In this document: in pieces, positions 1-7,839 of the stretch
Layout: every line of letters begins with the position of its first letter
How positions within the stretch are numbered: position 1 is the stretch's first letter
From: Acidobacteriota bacterium
GTDB lineage: Bacteria; Acidobacteriota; Terriglobia; Terriglobales; Acidobacteriaceae
NCBI GenBank assembly: GCA_021799405.1
Contig: JAJZAL010000242.1
Coordinates: 1 to 7,839 of the forward strand
Direction of reading: 5' to 3'
DNA: 7,839 bases
Notes under the pieces: model-generated
Seen by the model: the letters and a program-made list of their open reading frames with translations, nothing else
Told to the model about the DNA's origin: nothing
The model's database searches: none
Position numbers and translations under genes: made by a program

Positions 1-8
1 TGGATACA

Positions 9-23
9 CCTCCGTTATGGAGG
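9..23. repeat. short inverted repeat CCTCC/GGAGG
   Basis: CCTCC (9-13) and GGAGG (19-23) form a perfect 5-bp stem with a 5-nt loop just upstream of the small helix-turn-helix gene. It could be a weak hairpin or a protein-binding site. A repeat this short can easily be chance. Confidence 0.25.
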
Positions 24-29
24 CTTCCA

Positions 30-54
30 GTACGACTTCACACATGGCTCGTAC
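30..54. repeat. inverted repeat GTACGA-13-TCGTAC upstream of the HTH gene
   Basis: GTACGA (30-35) and TCGTAC (49-54) are perfect 6-bp inverted half-sites with a 13-nt spacer, ending 18 bp before the ATG at 73. The position fits an operator for autoregulation or an excisionase/recombinase arm site. No promoter boxes could be assigned with confidence around it, so the function is inferred from position only. Confidence 0.3.
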
Positions 55-72
55 CCCTTTACGGTGGGCACT

Positions 73-288
73 ATGAGCAACTCACCTAAGTCCCAAATCC
101 GCGTCGCACCATTACTTTTGAGTAGGACAGAGTGCGCGTCTGCACTCGGTATTTCTACCCGCTCTGTTGATTATCTGATTGCCAGCGGTCAGCTGGCAAG
201 CCTTAAGATCGGCCGCCGCCGCCTAATCGAGTACTTTTCAGTAAGCCAATTTCCGCGCAGGAACCACCATCTGAGACCAACTAAATGA
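73..288 (+). CDS. small winged-HTH DNA-binding protein, excisionase/MerR-like
   Basis: A 71-aa protein with the layout of excisionase-type HTH domains (HTH_17/MerR-like). A helix-turn-helix lies at about residues 17-35 (SRTECASALGISTRSVDYLI), followed by a wing segment at about 36-52 ending in IGRRRLI, the usual wing signature. Proteins of this kind bind DNA as recombination directionality factors or small regulators. I chose the ATG at 73 because family members normally start 10-16 residues before the helix-turn-helix. A GTG at 64 is the alternative, and the frame stays open to the window edge, so an upstream extension cannot be excluded. No strong ribosome binding site is visible. The gene lies on the same strand as the recombinase pair but is separated from it by about 540 bp containing IS debris, so it may be their directionality factor or belong to another element. 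Confidence 0.8.
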   Translation: MSNSPKSQIRVAPLLLSRTECASALGISTRSVDYLIASGQLASLKIGRRRLIEYFSVSQFPRRNHHLRPTK

Positions 289-373
289 CCTTGCCCTCAG
301 AATGCGTATCCAATAGCTGGCTGGCTTTGAGAGATTAATTCATCTCGTGGCAATCGCAGCAATGGGAACGTGG

Positions 374-392
374 AAATCGGTTTGATCGATTT
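374..392. repeat. inverted repeat AAATCG/CGATTT
   Basis: AAATCG (374-379) and CGATTT (387-392) flank a 7-nt spacer, inside the extension of the IS relic frame. The same bases also read as a near-perfect direct repeat (ATCGGTTTG then ATCGATTTG). Function unknown; chance is possible. Confidence 0.25.
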
Positions 393-400
393 GCGAGGTA

Positions 401-452
401 GGTGGGAAGAGCGGAAAGACAGTTTCATTGTTTTCCATGCTTTCCACCCACC
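401..452. repeat. two-part inverted repeat next to the IS3 relic
   Basis: GGTGGG (401-406) pairs with CCCACC (447-452), and GGAAAG (413-418) pairs with CTTTCC (440-445), giving a 12-bp interrupted stem with an asymmetric bulge (407-412 against 446) and a 21-nt loop. It lies just 3' of the transposase relic stop on the minus strand. It could be part of the IS end, a small non-autonomous repeat or a hairpin. Copies elsewhere in the genome would decide between these. Confidence 0.4.
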
Positions 453-633
453 GCATTTCCGCCGTCGGCTTCGGTTGCCACAGATCTCAGGCTACCGCCT
501 GTGCGCTGGTGTTCTGCAGGCAGTGTTCAAATTGCGCCGGTCTCAGATAGTTCAAGGTCGAATGCATGCGTTGGCGGTTGTACCACAGCAGCCAATCCAG
601 CACTGCGTCTTTAGCCTGCGGGATTGAGTGGGA

Positions 634-806
634 TCACGGTTCGCAACTTTCATTGATGGAGAGAGTTCCGGAGAAAGACCCACTTCAGGAAGGTATCCGT
701 TCTGCCGATAGCTGAATCATGACATTTGATCTCGTGCTGCTCGCTTCCGTTGTTCGAGCAGACGCTGGGGAGGCCTCGATCCGACTTCTCGTGACACCTC
801 CGGACC
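634..806. other. leader region upstream of the first recombinase-like gene
   Basis: No gene could be supported here. The stretch joins the IS3 relic to the start of the first large gene and should contain its promoter, but no convincing -35/-10 pair was seen. Its one clear structure is the inverted repeat at 737-761, listed separately. Confidence 0.4.
737..761. repeat. inverted repeat CTGCTCG-11-CGAGCAG in the leader
   Basis: CTGCTCG (737-743) and CGAGCAG (755-761) are perfect 7-bp inverted half-sites with an 11-nt spacer, about 67 bp before the preferred start at 828. The position fits an operator, a leader hairpin or a recombinase-binding site. Only the symmetry is directly visible; the role is inferred. 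Confidence 0.35.
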
Positions 807-815
807 ATGGATTGC

Positions 816-820
816 GGGAG
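816..820 (+). promoter_or_regulatory. ribosome binding site deciding the start at 828
   Basis: GGGAG at 816-820 lies 7 nt before the ATG at 828. The earlier in-frame ATG at 807 has only pyrimidine-rich sequence (CACCTCC) upstream and no purine-rich site. This favours initiation at 828. Confidence 0.6.
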
Positions 821-827
821 TCTTGAA

Positions 828-3350
828 ATGACAGTGGTTTCGACTCGCTATATAAGTGCAAATTCGCAGGTAGGGGCATTGACGGACCAAATCGGCTCAC
901 CTGACCTTGCTCGGGCCCTTGACGATCTTCTGCTTCTGACCGGCGGGCCGGAGGATCTGCGCTGCCTGCTTTACGTTACGGAGGCTCTGCAACGCGGTTT
1001 TGATGGAAGAGTTTGCTGGACTCGGGTCAAGCCTTTCTCGGCGTACCAATTCCTTGCCGAACAGGTGAACGCGAAAGCATCCATGCTTGTAGGGAAATAT
1101 CCCCATCTAAAGCCACCGCCGAAGGTACAGCACCGCGCGGATGGAACAACAACATGGCTCAACCCGATGTATGGATATATCGAAAAGCACCCACTGTGGG
1201 CAATGCTTTGTGCCGCGAGTGAAGATGAGGACCTGAGAACCAACTACGCGCTTCTCCAGATGCATATCCTTTATGCACGGCTGCGTGAAGCCTTCCATAA
1301 GGCAGGTGAACGGGAGCAAACGCTGGCCGTTATATTGAGCGCGACCGAGAACGATAGGGAGATGCGAATTCCCATTGAACTTGGGAAAGCAGTTCGCCGT
1401 CTATCGACCTTCGCTGGTCTGCTCAAAGCGCTTGATTCATGCCTGAGTCCACCTTTGTTTCGGAAGCACCTTGAGAGCTGGACAGACAGCGTCGACAGCG
1501 AGGCTGGCTCCATATTCACCGAGATCTTCAATCATGTTGTGGTAGAACGTGGTGCCCGACACGGTGGGCAGGGCAGCAAAGGCAGCAAAGGATTCAGGAA
1601 GGTTTGCCGAAAGAGCCATCCCGAGCACATTGAGCATGGCGCTGATCGGATCCGGTTCGCCATCGAGAATCATGATGAAGATGGATTAGACAGCGGAGCT
1701 ACCTACCGGTTAAGCACGCCCACCGACGCCGACGACCCGAACACGGACAATGAGACCCGGAATAAGGAGCAGCACAAATTTACATCGCCGCTTGACGCCG
1801 CCAGGAAACTCGGTCTCCACCCCGCCGAGCTCGGATCACTCTCGGGAATCCATGCCAACGTCCCGGGGGCGAAGAATACGGGGGATGCGAAGCAAATTGC
1901 GCGGGCTCGCTGGAGAAGCAGAGAGATCAACAGAAGCCTTATGCCCTGGAGTTCGGACCACCTCTCCTTGAGGGAATTCCATAGAGCGATCCTGCCGACC
2001 CTTGAAACAGCCTTGACCTCCCCCGAGATGCAGCTAAGCGATTTGAAGTCGGCTGTGCTGGTGGCCCTGTCGATTGACTCCGGCCGCAAAATGGAAGACG
2101 TAATCGAGCTGGCGGTTGAGCCAAAGGTCCAGATGGCGTCCTTCAGCTATCAGCCACCCAGTAAGGGTCGGGGAGATTGCGGCATCTGGAAGTGGGATGC
2201 GATCGCTCCCGAATATGAGTCCATTTTTGAAGTGCCGCAAGGTATGCAAATGGCTCTCGCCCCGTTTCTGCGCTATCCCGCCTCCAGGCTGGTGACGGAA
2301 CTCGTCGATAAATACCGCCGTATGGCCACGGTCCGGACCGTGCTGTTCAGATCCGAGAACGATGATGTTGCCGAAGCCCTCCGATGGATCAAGCGGCGAA
2401 GCGGCTGCGAGAACGTCACCCCGGGCCGGCTTGCCGGGCTCAGGTGGCAGGCACTTCATCAGGTCACTGGGGGCGAGTTGGCCAGTTCATGCCTCATCCT
2501 CGGGCAGCGAGCGCATCTGGCATCTGTCGAAATGCACTACGCTGTGCTCGAAGTGACGGAAGCGCGTGCGCAATTCGACCAGAGTTCAGAGATTCTGTGG
2601 GGTGAGCCTCCGACGGCATTCGACTTGCCTGATTCGGCCGATTCGGCGGTAGTGGGGGCACGAGCGGTTCCACGGGTCTCACTGGTAAAGGAGAAAGTGA
2701 GCCGCCTGGAGGCGGCAAGCAAGCAGTTTTTTGCGATCTCTCCACACGCCTTCGAGCCCCAGCATCATGGCGAACTCCTCAATGCCGCTGTGCTCTATAC
2801 CGTCTGGCACCAGTTCTTCAGCTTCGCAACGCGGTCGATTCAAAATGCGTACCAGGAGAGTTCACGCTTCGCCCGACACCATCAGGTCGCCATCCTGAGC
2901 GACAAGGACTTTGAGGATCACCACAAAACGCGTCTGATCCTGGCCAATAAACGTCTGCTCGATCACATGAAGGCGATCGAACAACGGCTCGATGCGATAC
3001 GCAAACACCTGAAGAGCCATCGGTTTCCGAAGAACTCGCCGCTCTTTTTTCTGGACGATGGCAAGCGAGCCCTCCGTATCACGCCAAAGACAGTAGAGGA
3101 CCAGCTGGGAGACGACTTTCCCTTCGAAGTCAACGCACCGCGCAAGTTGATGCGGTTCCTGGTGCGCAAGGCTGGGTTGTCGCACGAGGATGCAGAGGTC
3201 TATATGGGTCACTGGTGGGAGGCCCGGGAGCCGTGGTCGCCCTTTTCCAGTTTCGACTGGCCGGGTTACTTGGCGCGCATCAACGCCGTCGTTCCCGCCA
3301 TCCTTGATAGTTTGGGGTTCACCTGGATCCCAGGGGAGGAACCTCGGTGA
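828..3350 (+). CDS. large protein with two degenerate tyrosine-recombinase-like domains
   Basis: An 840-aa protein (847 aa from the alternative ATG at 807). Residues 1-240 are of unknown fold. Residues about 245-345 form a low-complexity, Gly/Lys/Asp-rich linker with a GSKGSKG repeat. A recombinase-like core spans about 390-590: R420 in SGRKMED matches catalytic Arg I, R534 in TPGRL occupies the HxxR position with Thr instead of His, Q560 (LGQ) replaces the GH His, and Y571 (MHYAVLE) matches the nucleophile. A second recombinase-like domain fills about 640-840: R669 (FATRS), K693 in SDKD, PLFFL, R772 in NAPRK, and GHW with H795, but no Tyr at the expected place. The gene overlaps the intact recombinase gene by 4 bp, so the two are probably co-translated. 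I infer a catalytically weak or inactive partner for integration/excision. Retained activity in domain 1 cannot be excluded because R, R and Y are present. Annotation pipelines might call it hypothetical or site-specific integrase. Confidence 0.75.
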   Translation: MTVVSTRYISANSQVGALTDQIGSPDLARALDDLLLLTGGPEDLRCLLYVTEALQRGFDGRVCWTRVKPFSAYQFLAEQVNAKASMLVGKYPHLKPPPKVQHRADGTTTWLNPMYGYIEKHPLWAMLCAASEDEDLRTNYALLQMHILYARLREAFHKAGEREQTLAVILSATENDREMRIPIELGKAVRRLSTFAGLLKALDSCLSPPLFRKHLESWTDSVDSEAGSIFTEIFNHVVVERGARHGGQGSKGSKGFRKVCRKSHPEHIEHGADRIRFAIENHDEDGLDSGATYRLSTPTDADDPNTDNETRNKEQHKFTSPLDAARKLGLHPAELGSLSGIHANVPGAKNTGDAKQIARARWRSREINRSLMPWSSDHLSLREFHRAILPTLETALTSPEMQLSDLKSAVLVALSIDSGRKMEDVIELAVEPKVQMASFSYQPPSKGRGDCGIWKWDAIAPEYESIFEVPQGMQMALAPFLRYPASRLVTELVDKYRRMATVRTVLFRSENDDVAEALRWIKRRSGCENVTPGRLAGLRWQALHQVTGGELASSCLILGQRAHLASVEMHYAVLEVTEARAQFDQSSEILWGEPPTAFDLPDSADSAVVGARAVPRVSLVKEKVSRLEAASKQFFAISPHAFEPQHHGELLNAAVLYTVWHQFFSFATRSIQNAYQESSRFARHHQVAILSDKDFEDHHKTRLILANKRLLDHMKAIEQRLDAIRKHLKSHRFPKNSPLFFLDDGKRALRITPKTVEDQLGDDFPFEVNAPRKLMRFLVRKAGLSHEDAEVYMGHWWEAREPWSPFSSFDWPGYLARINAVVPAILDSLGFTWIPGEEPR
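1572..1589 (+). repeat. tandem 9-bp repeat GGCAGCAAA x2
   Basis: Two perfect copies of GGCAGCAAA encode GSKGSK in the linker of the first large protein. The 9-bp unit preserves frame, so slippage would change linker length by three residues without disrupting the gene. Confidence 0.7.
2631..2648 (+). repeat. tandem 9-bp repeat GATTCGGC(C/G) x2
   Basis: GATTCGGCC followed by GATTCGGCG encodes DSADSA. It falls in the probable linker between the middle and C-terminal recombinase-like domains of the first large protein, which supports a domain boundary there. Confidence 0.6.
3332..3340 (+). promoter_or_regulatory. strong ribosome binding site for the GTG-started recombinase
   Basis: AGGGGAGGA at 3332-3340 lies 6 nt before the GTG at 3347, inside the last codons of the upstream gene. 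It justifies the GTG start. With the GTGA stop/start overlap, it indicates translational coupling. Confidence 0.8.
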
Positions 3351-5716
3351 TCCCTCACCAAGAGCGCATCGAGCAAATTCTCGCGTCAAGCGATCTACCT
3401 GCGGCGGTCCGTCTTTTGAGGAAGAAACAGCCGGAGCTGCAGCATCACGAGATCGAGCAACTGGAGGATCTCGTCCTGATCTCCGAGTCGGGGCCGGCCC
3501 GGTTGGATCGGCTCATGGACGCGCTGCACCAGAGAATCGGCGACACCTACGAGGTGCTCCACGGCAAGCTGGCGACACGCGTTGCCTTTCAGCCTCCTCA
3601 GTACGACAATATTCTCGCCGGCGGATTCGAGGGTCCCGAACAGGTATGGCGACAGGCGAAAAAATGGCTTGATGCGCATGCTGAGGGCGATCCGGCGAGC
3701 GAGCCTGCCCGTCTGCTCGGGCAACTCGCGGTCAGGTTGATCGTCGACTTCCAGATCCTCGATGCGGATGCAGTTCCCGCCCTGGTCCGTTCGCTCCGCC
3801 AACGCAGGCGCATCGTACTCGATCAGTGGTCTGGCGCAATTCCCATCGAGATCGTGAACAAGACCGCTACGAATCGCATTGAGCGCCTGTTGCATCCGAA
3901 GGGCGCATCACTGAACGTCATGCGATCCCTCATGGAGGATCAGGGCGCACAGCAGTACCTCGCGACACTTTTCGCGGAATGCGCAAAGGATAGCGGTGCG
4001 GCGGTTCGCGCGATCGAAGCCATCAAAGTCACATCGGGCGGGAACAGGCTGAAGATCAAGATCAAGCCGCTGATCGAAGCGGCGTGCCAGATGGCGATTC
4101 TGAGGATGCGCACCTCCGTGCTAGGGGTCAGAACCGGCGCGGTTCGGTCCCACGCACTCAATCTCGCCACGATGCAGCGAATCAGCAGATCCTCGCCTCC
4201 GGTGCTGCCGTTCTCGGCGCCAGCGGACGAGAAGGGCAAGGAGGATCTCCCCGGTGATGCCGAGGAGATCCTTGAAGAAGACGTTCGAGCATGGCCCTGG
4301 ATGCAGGATCTGCGCAAACTGGTCAGAGCGGATGCTCATGACAAGCCGGGCCTTCAACGGTTGGTGCAGAGTGGCGGGTTCTGCGGAAAGACTCTGGCCG
4401 GCTATGCTCTATTTCTGATTGGAAGGAAGTCGTTTGAAACCTCGACGGTCCACAAATACGTGTTCCTTATAGCGAACCGCCTGATGTTGAAGTTCGCTGC
4501 CTGGGACGAGGAGCGTGCAGGCGATAAATGGCAGAGCCTGCTCGCCGATCAAATCGCCTGGGAGGAACTCATCGAGCAGGTACTTGATGACGATGCGTAC
4601 TACCATCGCCGGCAGTATTCGCAGCGTACCCTGGCCGACAAAGGATTGGATCTTCCCTCTCCGCCCATCGCCAAAGAAGCTGCGGACGGCACATCGGACG
4701 CGGAGGTTCCTGCCGAGTCGTCCGGATCTGCGCCTGGCAATGTGCCCGGTTGGAATACTGCGTCTCCCGAGTTCCCAAAGTCGGACCCAGATCGCGACGC
4801 GGCAGGTTACTCGCGCGCCCTGCTGAAAGCTCTCGGCAACTTCATCACCTACCTGAATCGCGGCAAGCAGGCTTCAGAAGAATTGACGACGAAGCTTCCG
4901 CCGGCAGGCCTGATCCGAGTTGACGCCTCCATGATCACGGTCGACGAGTTCCGGCAGGCGCTCGAATGGTTTGATAGCCCGAACGTCAATCAATCCCAGG
5001 TTCACCTCAGGAAGACGGCGCGTGTGGCTTTGATCCTGGCCTTCCGCTGTGGACTGCGACGCGCCGAAATTGCCTATCTGCGGGTCTCGGATCTGGATCG
5101 TCCCCTGCCGAATGAAGACCTCATGACGACCGACCTTCGCCTGCGCGTCCGGCCATGGCTCTTGCGCAAGCTCAAGACCGCCAACGCGCTTCGCGATCTG
5201 CCTCTGGGGGTGCTGATGCCCGTTGAGGAATTGCGGGAAGTACTCGACTGGGTCCAGGAGGTTCGCACGCAAGGCGGCGACGGCGCCCTGCTCTTCCACA
5301 TGGTGGGTGCGAAGAAGAAGGCAGACTACCAAAAGCCAATGAGTTTCGACGCAGTGGTCGATGCACTGACGGATGCCTTCACGAAGAAGGTGAAGGGCCG
5401 TCCGCCCATCATACCCGACTGGCACCTGCATCAGTGCCGTCACGCCTTTGCAAACCTCATGCTACTTCGGCTATGGCCAGAGTTGCATCTGGTGGCAAAG
5501 CAGGTGTTCCGCCACCACCCGCTGACGCTTGCGTGGATTGCGGACCCGGAAGCGTTCCGCCTGGATCTGTTCAAGGTGGCGGGGATCCGCGGCAGCGATC
5601 TGCAGGCGATTGCGCTGCTGATGGGCCATGGCGCGTCGGCGACGACCTGTGAACACTACCTGCATATCTTGGACTGGTACACCCCAGTTGCGGCCGGAGA
5701 ACTGAATGTTTCCTGA
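3347..5716 (+). CDS. large tyrosine recombinase (site-specific integrase)
   Basis: A 789-aa protein, about twice the length of a typical phage integrase, with a complete tyrosine-recombinase catalytic domain in its C-terminal 230 residues. Arg I is R571 in CGLRRAE; the beta-hairpin Lys is K610 in KLKTANALRDLPL; the HxxR box is H695-Q-C-R698, followed by H699AFA; the second His is H761 in LMGHG; the nucleophile is Y771 in EHYLHI. This family cuts and rejoins DNA through a 3'-phosphotyrosine without external energy. Residues about 346-386 resemble the helical core-binding domain, followed by an acidic, Pro/Ser-rich linker at about 440-490. Residues 1-330 match nothing I recognise and include an acidic patch near 300-316. 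The GTG start has a strong ribosome binding site and overlaps the upstream gene's stop. It is very likely the catalytic subunit of a mobile-element integration/excision system. Confidence 0.92.
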   Translation: MIPHQERIEQILASSDLPAAVRLLRKKQPELQHHEIEQLEDLVLISESGPARLDRLMDALHQRIGDTYEVLHGKLATRVAFQPPQYDNILAGGFEGPEQVWRQAKKWLDAHAEGDPASEPARLLGQLAVRLIVDFQILDADAVPALVRSLRQRRRIVLDQWSGAIPIEIVNKTATNRIERLLHPKGASLNVMRSLMEDQGAQQYLATLFAECAKDSGAAVRAIEAIKVTSGGNRLKIKIKPLIEAACQMAILRMRTSVLGVRTGAVRSHALNLATMQRISRSSPPVLPFSAPADEKGKEDLPGDAEEILEEDVRAWPWMQDLRKLVRADAHDKPGLQRLVQSGGFCGKTLAGYALFLIGRKSFETSTVHKYVFLIANRLMLKFAAWDEERAGDKWQSLLADQIAWEELIEQVLDDDAYYHRRQYSQRTLADKGLDLPSPPIAKEAADGTSDAEVPAESSGSAPGNVPGWNTASPEFPKSDPDRDAAGYSRALLKALGNFITYLNRGKQASEELTTKLPPAGLIRVDASMITVDEFRQALEWFDSPNVNQSQVHLRKTARVALILAFRCGLRRAEIAYLRVSDLDRPLPNEDLMTTDLRLRVRPWLLRKLKTANALRDLPLGVLMPVEELREVLDWVQEVRTQGGDGALLFHMVGAKKKADYQKPMSFDAVVDALTDAFTKKVKGRPPIIPDWHLHQCRHAFANLMLLRLWPELHLVAKQVFRHHPLTLAWIADPEAFRLDLFKVAGIRGSDLQAIALLMGHGASATTCEHYLHILDWYTPVAAGELNVS
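4243..4271. repeat. inverted repeat GGATCTCC-13-GGAGATCC inside the recombinase gene
   Basis: GGATCTCC (4243-4250) and GGAGATCC (4264-4271) are perfect 8-bp inverted half-sites with a 13-nt spacer, within codons for the acidic patch DLPGDAEEILEED. The coding constraint may be the whole explanation. An internal recombinase-binding or regulatory site is possible but unproven. Confidence 0.35.
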
Positions 5717-6162: not shown

Positions 6163-7056
6163 ATGGACGGTAGCAACAATATGAATTCGAGAAGAATTTC
6201 GGCGAAGGAAGGACGTCCCAGCAACCTAGCGCTCTATCGGGAATACTGGTCTCCAGCGGAAAGCATCACTCCGCTGAATGGTGCCGTAATGAACTGCGCC
6301 GAATGGTTCCAGTTGTATGGCGGCTACATCTTCCGGACGTTCAGCACCGGTGAAGCGACTGACTCCTTCGAAATTCCAGAGACGATGTGCGCCTACATCC
6401 GGAGTCGTCTGGAAAGGATCACGACCGAATCTGCGGAACGAGAGCAACCAGCCGGCTCTGAACAGCCTCGATGCGCGTTGATGAACAAATCGGGCAATCC
6501 ATCCGATGCCCAGTTAGCCCGCTGGTTCGTACCACCCCTCAACCCGAGCTTAACTACTGCCCTTCCACCGCTTCACCTCTCGAAGAAAGCATGGGAAAGA
6601 TCTGTATCGCTCGCGCGGAAACTGATGACTGTGGCCCGACGCCAGCCATATCTGGTGCGTAGCGCTGTGTCGGGGTACTGCTACGCCGCGACAACTCATC
6701 GCTACGTAATCATCAGCGATGCACATGATGCCGAATACGGCAAGATGCTCTTCAAGTTGGTAGACGAACTTGACCTCGACGGTCCGACTCTTCGCTATGT
6801 GGGATTCCGGGCAGGGGCCCGCCAGAACGCTGTGCAGGCCCTGGCCAGGTCATTCGGCCTGCCTTCTGCGCCCGGTGACTATGAGACTGCCAACAACCTC
6901 GAAAGCCTTGCCCGCCTGAACCACCTCGGCATCCGGATTTGCTGGGGTGACTCGCACCGTTCCAGCCCAGAATGGCATCAGGTCGCCGTTCTAGCTGCGG
7001 TCACGGAATTGTGGCGCTGTGTCACCAGTACGAAAAGGTTCCATTCTGCACTGTAA
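6163..7056 (+). CDS. 297-aa protein of unknown function
   Basis: I do not recognise this family. The ATG at 6163 has GAGG 6 nt upstream (GAGGATCCTC ATG); an in-frame ATG at 6181 is a weaker alternative. The protein appears soluble: no signal peptide or membrane segment is evident. The N-terminal 90 residues include NCAEWFQLYGGYIFRTF, followed by a polar, low-conservation-looking stretch at about 85-135. From about 140 a mixed alpha/beta region follows, with GYCYAATTHRYVIISD, a VDELDLDGPTLRYVGFR segment, then helices around ARQNAVQALARSFGL and a C-terminal LGIRICWGD. No tyrosine-recombinase, HTH or nuclease signature was found. It is on the same strand as the recombinase pair but 446 bp downstream, so probably has its own promoter. 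It could be a third component of the recombinase module, or cargo. Confidence 0.7.
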   Translation: MDGSNNMNSRRISAKEGRPSNLALYREYWSPAESITPLNGAVMNCAEWFQLYGGYIFRTFSTGEATDSFEIPETMCAYIRSRLERITTESAEREQPAGSEQPRCALMNKSGNPSDAQLARWFVPPLNPSLTTALPPLHLSKKAWERSVSLARKLMTVARRQPYLVRSAVSGYCYAATTHRYVIISDAHDAEYGKMLFKLVDELDLDGPTLRYVGFRAGARQNAVQALARSFGLPSAPGDYETANNLESLARLNHLGIRICWGDSHRSSPEWHQVAVLAAVTELWRCVTSTKRFHSAL

Positions 7057-7085: not shown

Positions 7086-7327
7086 AAGGAAACTCTCTCA
7101 AGGGAGGCGGAAAACTGCATTTGTGGCCGCAGTGAAAGCCTTAATGAGAGACAGGATGCAAATTGCAAACCAAACTCAACTTGTGTCTTCGACTGCGCTT
7201 GAGTGCTCGACAGTGCAACTCGGTGCAGCAAGCTTCGACTGGAGTTTGGTGGACTTTCAAGAGGTTAGAATCGGCAGCAGCAGCGGCGCTGGTTATCTCA
7301 TTTCACGATGCAGACCGATTCACTTTG
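7086..7327. other. intergenic stretch with no supported gene
   Basis: Nothing convincing is encoded here. Plus-strand open frames of up to about 90 codons exist, but the longest has only a non-ATG start and no ribosome binding site, and the peptide lacks recognisable features. The stretch looks less G/C-rich than the recombinase genes, as expected of noncoding DNA or an element edge. Confidence 0.4.
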
Positions 7328-7403: not shown

Positions 7404-7839
7404 TCACCTTGAACGAATTGCTACAGATAATAGGTGCAGCAGCGCAAACCAACTTCTTGGGTTCAGCAGGTCGAGGCCGGCAGACAAGCGTGATACACGC
7501 ACCAACTCTTGCGGGGGGTAGTCGGGAGGCAATTTCGCCATCAGTTTCGCTGCCGTGTCTCGACTCACAGGTGCCTTGTCTCGCTTGGCGCGCTCAAGCA
7601 ACTTCGGAAGCTGTTTGATCGTCGGGTCAGGGCAATACGCAGGCGTTCCAGGTTGGAAGCGCCATGATTCGGACAGTGATCCCGCATCCAGCGAGTCAAA
7701 GCCCACCGCGTCAAGCAGATCCATTACCGTCTTCTTTGATTGAGCATTCTCGCCGGCGACAGGGAGAGCAATTCTTTTCTTCGCTCCGCGCGGAACGGCC
7801 TTCTTGAGCAGACTGTCTGCGACGATGTTGTTCATAGCC
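7404..7839 (-). CDS. NAD(P)-binding oxidoreductase, F420:NADP reductase-like (COG2085 type), 3' part
   Basis: The minus-strand frame is open from the right edge to a TGA at 7404-7406, giving about 145 codons. The sequence AMNNIVADSL matches the K-A/V-F-N-N-I strand-helix of the COG2085 / NADPH-dependent F420 reductase-like family, so the Met at 7833-7835 is internal and the real start is beyond the window. Further family features are RIALPVAGENAQSK and VGFDSLDAGSLSESWR followed by FQPGTPAY. These enzymes use an N-terminal Rossmann fold (outside this window) to bind NADP(H); the substrate here is unknown and F420 use should not be assumed. The last 25 or so residues (NPRSWFALLHLLSVAIRSR) do not resemble anything I recall from the family, so the C-terminus may be replaced by foreign DNA. 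It converges with the upstream genes. Confidence 0.8.
   Translation of the reverse strand, partial: AMNNIVADSLLKKAVPRGAKKRIALPVAGENAQSKKTVMDLLDAVGFDSLDAGSLSESWRFQPGTPAYCPDPTIKQLPKLLERAKRDKAPVSRDTAAKLMAKLPPDYPPQELVRVSRLSAGLDLLNPRSWFALLHLLSVAIRSR

Follow-up and report, generated by a model that had tools for sequence, protein, structure and literature searches.

Tyrosine recombinases usually act as homotetramers whose protomers work in turn, and Gamma-Mobile-Trio loci are mobile three-gene modules with a tyrosine recombinase. The present analysis concerns a 7,839-nucleotide stretch of DNA from an Acidobacteriota bacterium (family Acidobacteriaceae; assembly GCA_021799405.1, contig JAJZAL010000242.1), referred to below as the window, and two overlapping giant genes on it, A and B. 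The A-B pair is genuine and widely spread; it is best read as a two-subunit giant recombinase, undescribed in the literature searched.

Comparison with described systems

Several described systems use more than one recombinase-type protein. SE elements are strand-biased circularizing integrative elements with the genes intA-tfp-intB-srap; in excerpts of the report on them, Tfp is described as without the RHRY motif, no deletion of tfp was obtained, and an exchange of one strand pair is modelled (PMC10214605). The same excerpts describe RIT elements as three recombinase genes in a row (PMC10214605). GInt islands carry ginABCD, coding for three integrases, of which GinC is the third, and GinD. 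In excerpts of the original report, all four gin genes are reported as essential and the first arginine of GinC is missing (PMC5385486); GinC is elsewhere said to be without RHRY motif or catalytic tyrosine (PMC10214605, in excerpt).

The A-B pair resembles SE elements, in which one operon on a mobile island likewise encodes several recombinase-type proteins, one of them large and one (Tfp) without a full catalytic set. However, SE elements combine two complete recombinases with Tfp and Srap, whereas A and B are two giants of which the first is incomplete and keeps R-K-N-R-H. The window was set apart from SE elements by gene content alone (two recombinase-type genes, not intA/tfp/intB plus srap). 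Near a second, almost identical copy of the locus (genome G001) no third recombinase was found: none of 14 PF00589 matches at an expect value (E) ≤ 1e-12 lay on C232, its 20-kb contig. Ordinary recombinases do occur near the pair in some relatives, for instance one of 442 amino acids about 0.7 kb upstream of the small helix-turn-helix (HTH) gene in L027, and a distant third recombinase gene may belong to the system in some of them. With GInt islands the pair shares the combination of complete and incomplete recombinases, jointly needed for integration and excision in GInt; by gene content alone, it differs in having two such proteins with the incomplete one first, instead of three integrases and GinD with the incomplete GinC third. 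RIT elements differ in having three recombinase genes, not two. Tn554, with TnpA, TnpB and TnpC, is a further system with several recombinase-type proteins.

The comparison with Gamma-Mobile-Trio loci, drawn in an earlier note made from the letters of the window, failed at the level of protein models, though most A-B relatives likewise carry a small gene before the pair. No Gmt model, NF040693 (GmtY) being the one confirmed among the models searched, gave a match at E ≤ 10 for A or B or at E ≤ 1 for ten proteins of relatives. NF040693 found nothing in the Vibrio and Acinetobacter johnsonii records (W01, W02), and one match elsewhere in G001 reached 32 bits against a cut-off of 340.

Relatives of the pair may already have a name on plasmids. 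The gene tyr13 is, in excerpts of the work on GR13 Acinetobacter plasmids, a tyrosine recombinase gene and one of four core genes of 43 such plasmids, with p3ABAYE as reference (PMC9455709). In this reference an A gene precedes a B that is spread over two frames (L047, 5349-10905). The gene tyr13 is treated as a single recombinase gene (PMC9455709, in excerpt); it may be B, in which case its partner A would have gone unnoticed. No description of an A-B pair was found in the literature searched; most subscription papers lay outside the search, so this absence is weak.

The gene pair

The layout of the two genes is as follows.

828..3350, + strand: gene A, recombinase-type subunit, 840 amino acids; from the open reading frame (ORF) list, without Pfam match
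3333..3339, + strand: Shine-Dalgarno-like GGGGAGG ahead of gene B, seven bases 5' of its GTG, read in the sequence
3347..3350, + strand: GTGA overlap of B start and A stop, read in the sequence
3347..5716, + strand: gene B, catalytic subunit, 789 amino acids, GTG start; from the ORF list and PF00589

The frame of A (807-3350) gives 847 amino acids from its first ATG and 840 from the ATG at 828. The GTGA overlap with a strong ribosome binding site, reported in the earlier note, is present as described. Both ORFs are far longer than chance would give: when the window was shuffled 200 times by mononucleotides, the longest stop-free stretch reached 307 codons at most (mean 184). An in-frame stop terminates window B about 25-30 residues short of the ends of close relatives, and a similar tail follows beyond it. 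The window holds no tRNA and no Rfam family at gathering score.

Domains and catalytic residues

Four modules were delimited in the two proteins.

1980..2627, + strand: A middle domain, residues 385-600, with invariant Y571 (codon 2538-2540) in 22/22 proteins; fold not assignable
2634..3341, + strand: A C-terminal domain, residues 603-838, tyrosine-recombinase catalytic domain with R669, K693, N769, R772, H795 and F806; from hhalign, a PDB profile and alignment columns
3347..4246, + strand: B N-terminal module, residues 1-300, probable degenerate recombinase-like fold
4814..5713, + strand: B C-terminal catalytic module, residues 490-789, with R571, K610, H695, R698, H761 and Y771; from alignment columns and hhalign

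The active site of B is complete, as the earlier note had read it (R-K-HxxR-H-Y). R571, K610, R698, H761 and Y771 are present in all 22 aligned B proteins and H695 in 19 of them. B matches PF00589 above the cut-off (E = 2.2e-7, 31.3 bits against 27.1) and its catalytic module was recovered by hhalign (99%, E = 4.9e-18); XerC/XerD-type models match weakly and no PADLOC model matches. Modelling suggests that B probably opens with a second, degenerate recombinase module. B proteins are also matched by PHROG 33072 (best E = 1.1e-20), a phage family of 1066 positions whose function is not known; a tblastn search of phage records with the A. johnsonii B protein gave no match.

Pfam and NCBIfam models give no match to window A at E ≤ 10, nor do PADLOC models at E ≤ 1. 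Profiles nevertheless place its C-terminal domain, missed in the earlier note, among the homologues of tyrosine recombinases (PF00589). Against 23 ordinary recombinases hhalign gave 95.8% (E = 7e-9), and the domain profile found XerA (PDB 4a8e) at E = 6.6e-6 for the whole sequence and 2e-4 for the best stretch. The kinship of A with tyrosine recombinases asserted earlier was thus borne out through this domain. Single A proteins match PF00589 at E ≤ 1 in 2/19 cases, the best being that of Vibrio (2.2e-4; 21.5 bits, below the cut-off). Profiles of close relatives alone found little in the PDB: for A1 the best match was an unrelated enzyme (E 1.1), for A2 they were AmphI (0.016) and a XerC-like protein (0.62). 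The 23 ordinary recombinases were 17 of 30 loci from a PF00589 search that passed an HxxR and G[HR]-Y filter, plus six from fetched loci; this filter partly builds these motifs into the comparison set.

The alignment of 22 A proteins, in which the G001 copy stood in for window A (three residue differences, none at the residues discussed), holds 18 proteins at 13-21% identity to that copy and three (P0003, P0007 and P0013) at 61-71%. Between the A proteins of A. pittii and p3ABAYE identity is 99%, and because of such close and near-identical rows the effective number of proteins is about 18. Only Y571, G610, R669, D692, K693, R772 and H795 are identical in all 22, and the same seven columns are invariant in a profile set of 19 rows (A9), which includes the window itself and leaves out P0003, P0007 and P0013. 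N769, R702, N652, S807 and G419 are kept in 21/22. In a joint alignment with the ordinary recombinases, R669, K693, N769, R772 and H795 fall on the columns of arginine I, the lysine, histidine II, arginine II and histidine III, and position 806 on that of the tyrosine. At position 806 the 22 proteins have F (10), Y (8), H (2), S (1) or L (1), so that no conserved nucleophile tyrosine stands at the usual place. The sole invariant tyrosine, Y571, lies upstream of the C-terminal domain, inside the middle domain.

This middle domain has no conserved catalytic set apart from Y571, because R420 is arginine in 7 of the 22 proteins, R539 is arginine in 4, Q560 is glutamine in 2, and T531 is threonine in 15 and serine in 5. 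Threonine and glutamine at the two histidine positions, as read in the earlier note, are indeed present in the window (T531, Q560). The label of a degenerate partner that the note gave to A fits in part: the middle domain is not assignable, and the C-terminal domain keeps R-K-N-R-H in 21-22 of the 22 proteins, though not its own tyrosine. The middle domain was also considered as a degenerate catalytic domain in its own right, which found no support (hhalign 0.5%, over a 23-residue stretch only). Its profile gave 0 matches in the PDB at E ≤ 10, and sliding windows over Y571 ranked 42 and 50 of 202, reversed controls included, in comparison with the HxxR-GH-Y region of ordinary recombinases; windows from the A C-terminal domain and the B catalytic module occupied ranks 1-9. 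A recombinase-type middle domain is favoured only by the distance from G419 to Y571, 124-175 residues in the 22 A proteins and within the range of 121-175 in the 23 ordinary recombinases, and by a weak match of Vibrio A to PF16795 (E = 0.17, over 425-484, spanning its Y470).

Coupling of A and B in Acidobacteriota

A search of 5.8 billion proteins, with the best 7993-7995 candidates scored, gave at E ≤ 0.001 at least 22 clusters of A and at least 27 of B, counting those of the window itself; an Acidobacteriota metagenome-assembled genome (MAG) is among the sources of close relatives. Nine of the 22 A clusters agree with a B cluster in the length of the longest contig, and eight of these pairs probably share a contig. 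A protein search with distant A proteins gave back the same 22 clusters. The ninth, P0022, is one single protein in both lists and joins an N-terminal part of A in frame with the catalytic half of B; it is a natural chimera (3 member sequences on 3 contigs), possibly derived by internal deletion.

Over 397 genomes of the order, an A profile found 14 places in 11 genomes and a wider B profile 22 places in 18 genomes, all in the window's own family. Of these B places, 12 allowed a judgement on A, which lies directly upstream in every one: G636, two each in G573 and G558, G595, G482, G546, G523, G001, G681 and G571, where the contig stops within B. An element of G558 has the same A and B as an element of G573, and the copies of G001, G523 and G571 are near-identical, so that the 12 loci represent about nine distinct elements. 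At the G730 place a contig edge falls where A would be, the two places of G592 are one broken B at a contig edge, and one place belongs to the G681 gene as its second piece. G517, of which the region was opened, and G436, of which it was not, seem to be ordinary recombinases, judging from frame length and the part matched. The four places in G569, G274, G441 and G720 are pieces resembling the C-terminal extension of B alone (L102, L103, L104 and L105), either remnants or an independent domain. Seen from the 14 A places, B adjoins in eleven; two are broken A pieces in G509 and one is a weak A-like remnant in G681:C350 (22 bits).

The overlap of A and B is 4 bases in the window, L027, L028, L030 and L032, 8 in L029 and 1 in L100; in L024-L026 the start of B is uncertain. 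A gene of 203-287 amino acids precedes A in 7 of the 8 distant types opened, L029 being the exception. The clearest of these small genes have winged-helix matches, just above the HTH_36 cut-off in L028 and below it in L027. Upstream of the pair, L027 and L032 have ORFs that match HTH_17 and AlpA above the respective cut-offs. Wider samples yielded few relatives: one of 396 genomes of the phylum with the B profile at E ≤ 1e-10, one of 399 of the class with the A3 profile, and one in a search of genome contigs. Viral contigs brought no gain.

Distant relatives and fused proteins

The side-by-side arrangement with A first is shared by Acidobacteriota, Vibrio, Aeromonas, Ketogulonicigenium and Acinetobacter, with A identity down to 13%. 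Plasmid records were searched by tblastn. Window B matched 19 Acinetobacter records at 24-27% identity and distant B 203 records, 198 of them Acinetobacter; distant A matched four at E ≤ 0.01. With the Vibrio proteins at E ≤ 0.001, 15 records were found for A and 193 for B. Relatives of B thus matched 190 to 198 Acinetobacter plasmid records, depending on the query.

In 14 plasmid regions that were opened, A and B are adjacent in ten (L035 Vibrio, L036 Aeromonas, L038 Ketogulonicigenium and L040, L041 and L043-L047 Acinetobacter) and fused in two (L003, L004). L037 of Sphingobium has B with a partial A, and L039 of Marinomonas a piece of B truncated by an insertion sequence (IS), without A. 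Seven of these regions (L036-L038 and L043-L046) had been picked through A; seen from B, coupling was found in six of seven regions (L003, L004, L035, L040, L041 and L047, not L039). All nine Acinetobacter regions opened have the pair or the fusion, under annotated names such as 'hypothetical protein', 'integrase' and 'site-specific integrase / tyrosine-type recombinase'. The fixed coupling claimed in the earlier note is upheld, with A upstream in 12/12 judged B loci and the pair adjacent in 10 and fused in 2 of the 14 plasmid regions; the gene-neighbourhood check that the note had proposed did not find B regularly without A. In the Ketogulonicigenium region a 248-amino-acid ORF (L038:10665-11411) overlaps the end of B by 4 bases and has no Pfam match at E ≤ 1.

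The fused protein has 1683 amino acids and spans A and B. At least 80% of it is covered in 42 of 42 matching records, all Acinetobacter, in one piece in 27 and in 2-8 pieces in 15, several of which name an insertion sequence under the match. The fused protein aligns with B over the C-terminal half (hhalign 95.3%, E = 2.1e-8) and carries the seven A-invariant residues in the N-terminal half. The pairing is old, in the same order across distant bacteria and as one polypeptide in Acinetobacter plasmids.

Element ends and neighbouring genes

Three further features concern the mobile element on which the pair would reside.

64..288, + strand: small helix-turn-helix / excisionase-like ORF, 74 amino acids from GTG; HTH_17 and TIGR01764, both below cut-off
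6163..7056, + strand: ORF D, 297 amino acids; residues 148-262 weakly like the C-terminal extension of distant B proteins
7262..7271, no strand: probable right end of the mobile element, ...GAGGTTAGAAT; from flank divergence of near-identical copies

The window, L005 (G001) and L022 (G523, on the contig of L002) agree at 99.6-99.7% identity as far as window position 7271-7272 and diverge beyond it, and G571 shares the left part at 99.5% identity. The MAGs with these copies were assigned to three genera of one family. The near-identity of the copies, their different right flanks from one base on and the three genera together fit a recent move of an element whose right end lies at 7271. Stretches of 14, 18 or 22 bases leading up to this end do not recur in the window or L005 with up to a quarter mismatches.

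The ORF at 64-288 (HTH_17 E = 1.2e-4, 22.7 bits against 27; TIGR01764 E = 1.3e-5, 25.5 bits against 28.8) is possibly an accessory DNA-binding protein of the element. ORF D may be a C-terminal extension of B encoded as a separate gene: hmmsearch with six acidobacterial extensions found it at E = 2e-4 (3.9e-4 among 2361 ORFs; 15-17 bits), and a broader profile of 17 B tails did not report it at E ≤ 1. An antisense frame at about 490-633 reads like a transposase C-terminus, presumably of IS3 type. On the minus strand, past the probable element end, a 144-amino-acid open frame (7404-7838) leaves the window without Pfam or NCBIfam match.

Proposed function and alternatives

It is likely that A and B are two obligatory subunits of one giant tyrosine-recombinase machine, predicted to integrate and excise a mobile element; a hetero-oligomer with divided roles is the best inference from the comparisons. 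A and B would be translated in a coupled fashion and assemble on the element ends, where Y771 of B would cut and join DNA. A may occupy the neighbouring protomer positions of the synapse, its R-K-N-R-H pocket still gripping, and perhaps activating, the scissile phosphate. Such an asymmetric synapse might exchange one strand pair only, as modelled in excerpts of the SE report (PMC10214605).

Several results weigh against this explanation. Window A itself matched nothing in the plasmid records by tblastn, and the A family and the fused protein matched weakly in a single-sequence comparison (1.2%); window A is tied to the plasmid and fused proteins through intermediates. G509 has broken A pieces without recognisable B (L031:8897-9945). 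Neither the left end nor attachment-site (att) repeats of the element were found, and the near-identical MAG copies could come from assembly or binning of a repeat (contig coverage of L002 2.64). AlphaFold models were poor (mean pLDDT, the predicted local confidence, 49.8 for B and 41.2 for A) and no geometry of a complex could be obtained. Two more points, the stop that shortens window B and the small upstream gene, which tblastn with nine such proteins of relatives did not find in window 1-900 (best E 0.37), bear as well on the first alternative.

In this alternative the family is real and the window copy sits on a decaying island and is perhaps inactive, which is possible, if less than probable. 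The similar tail behind the stop in B, the missing upstream gene and the insertion-sequence remnant, an IS3-like transposase in antisense by reading of the translation, would all fit decay. However, copies of 99.6-99.7% identity with different right flanks suggest recent movement, and both large frames are open in the whole copies (window, L005 and L022), that of A also in L023.

The second alternative, a version of the two-subunit explanation with inactive A, makes A a purely architectural pseudo-recombinase like Tfp or GinC, which would bind the ends and B and hold DNA with R-K-N-R-H while all chemistry came from Y771 of B. This is likewise possible, if less than probable. It would account for the mixed residues at position 806 and has precedents in Tfp, without RHRY motif and with no deletion obtained, and in the four essential gin genes (PMC10214605 and PMC5385486, in excerpt). 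However, five catalytic-type residues in 21-22 of 22 proteins, at 13-21% identity save for three close relatives, are strict for a scaffold, and unlike A, Tfp is described in the SE excerpts as without the motif altogether (PMC10214605).

A bolder form of the two-subunit explanation appears unlikely. It takes A-B, or the 1683-amino-acid fusion, as an asymmetric pseudo-tetramer of A-middle, A-C-terminal, B-N-terminal and B-C-terminal modules with two active sites. The first would be B's own; the second would be composite, with R669-K693-N769-R772-H795 of A and Y571 from the preceding domain. Flp-type recombinases cleave in trans, and the composite site would be a covalent counterpart of this. 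Because the sequence tests of the A middle domain gave no support, it is offered as a conjecture.

That an ordinary integrase overlaps an unrelated long ORF by chance, to which the lack of a Pfam match of window A might point, is hardly credible, being contradicted by the conserved pairing in distant bacteria, the fusion and the homology of the A C-terminal domain to recombinases.

Implications

If the two-subunit explanation is true, the A-B pair would be a giant form of tyrosine recombinase that has become a stable fusion in one plasmid lineage, with nearly the whole catalytic pocket retained in one subunit but the tyrosine not in place. Such a form would allow the roles of the synapse positions to be separated, and it could account for the exchange of one strand that has been modelled for SE elements.

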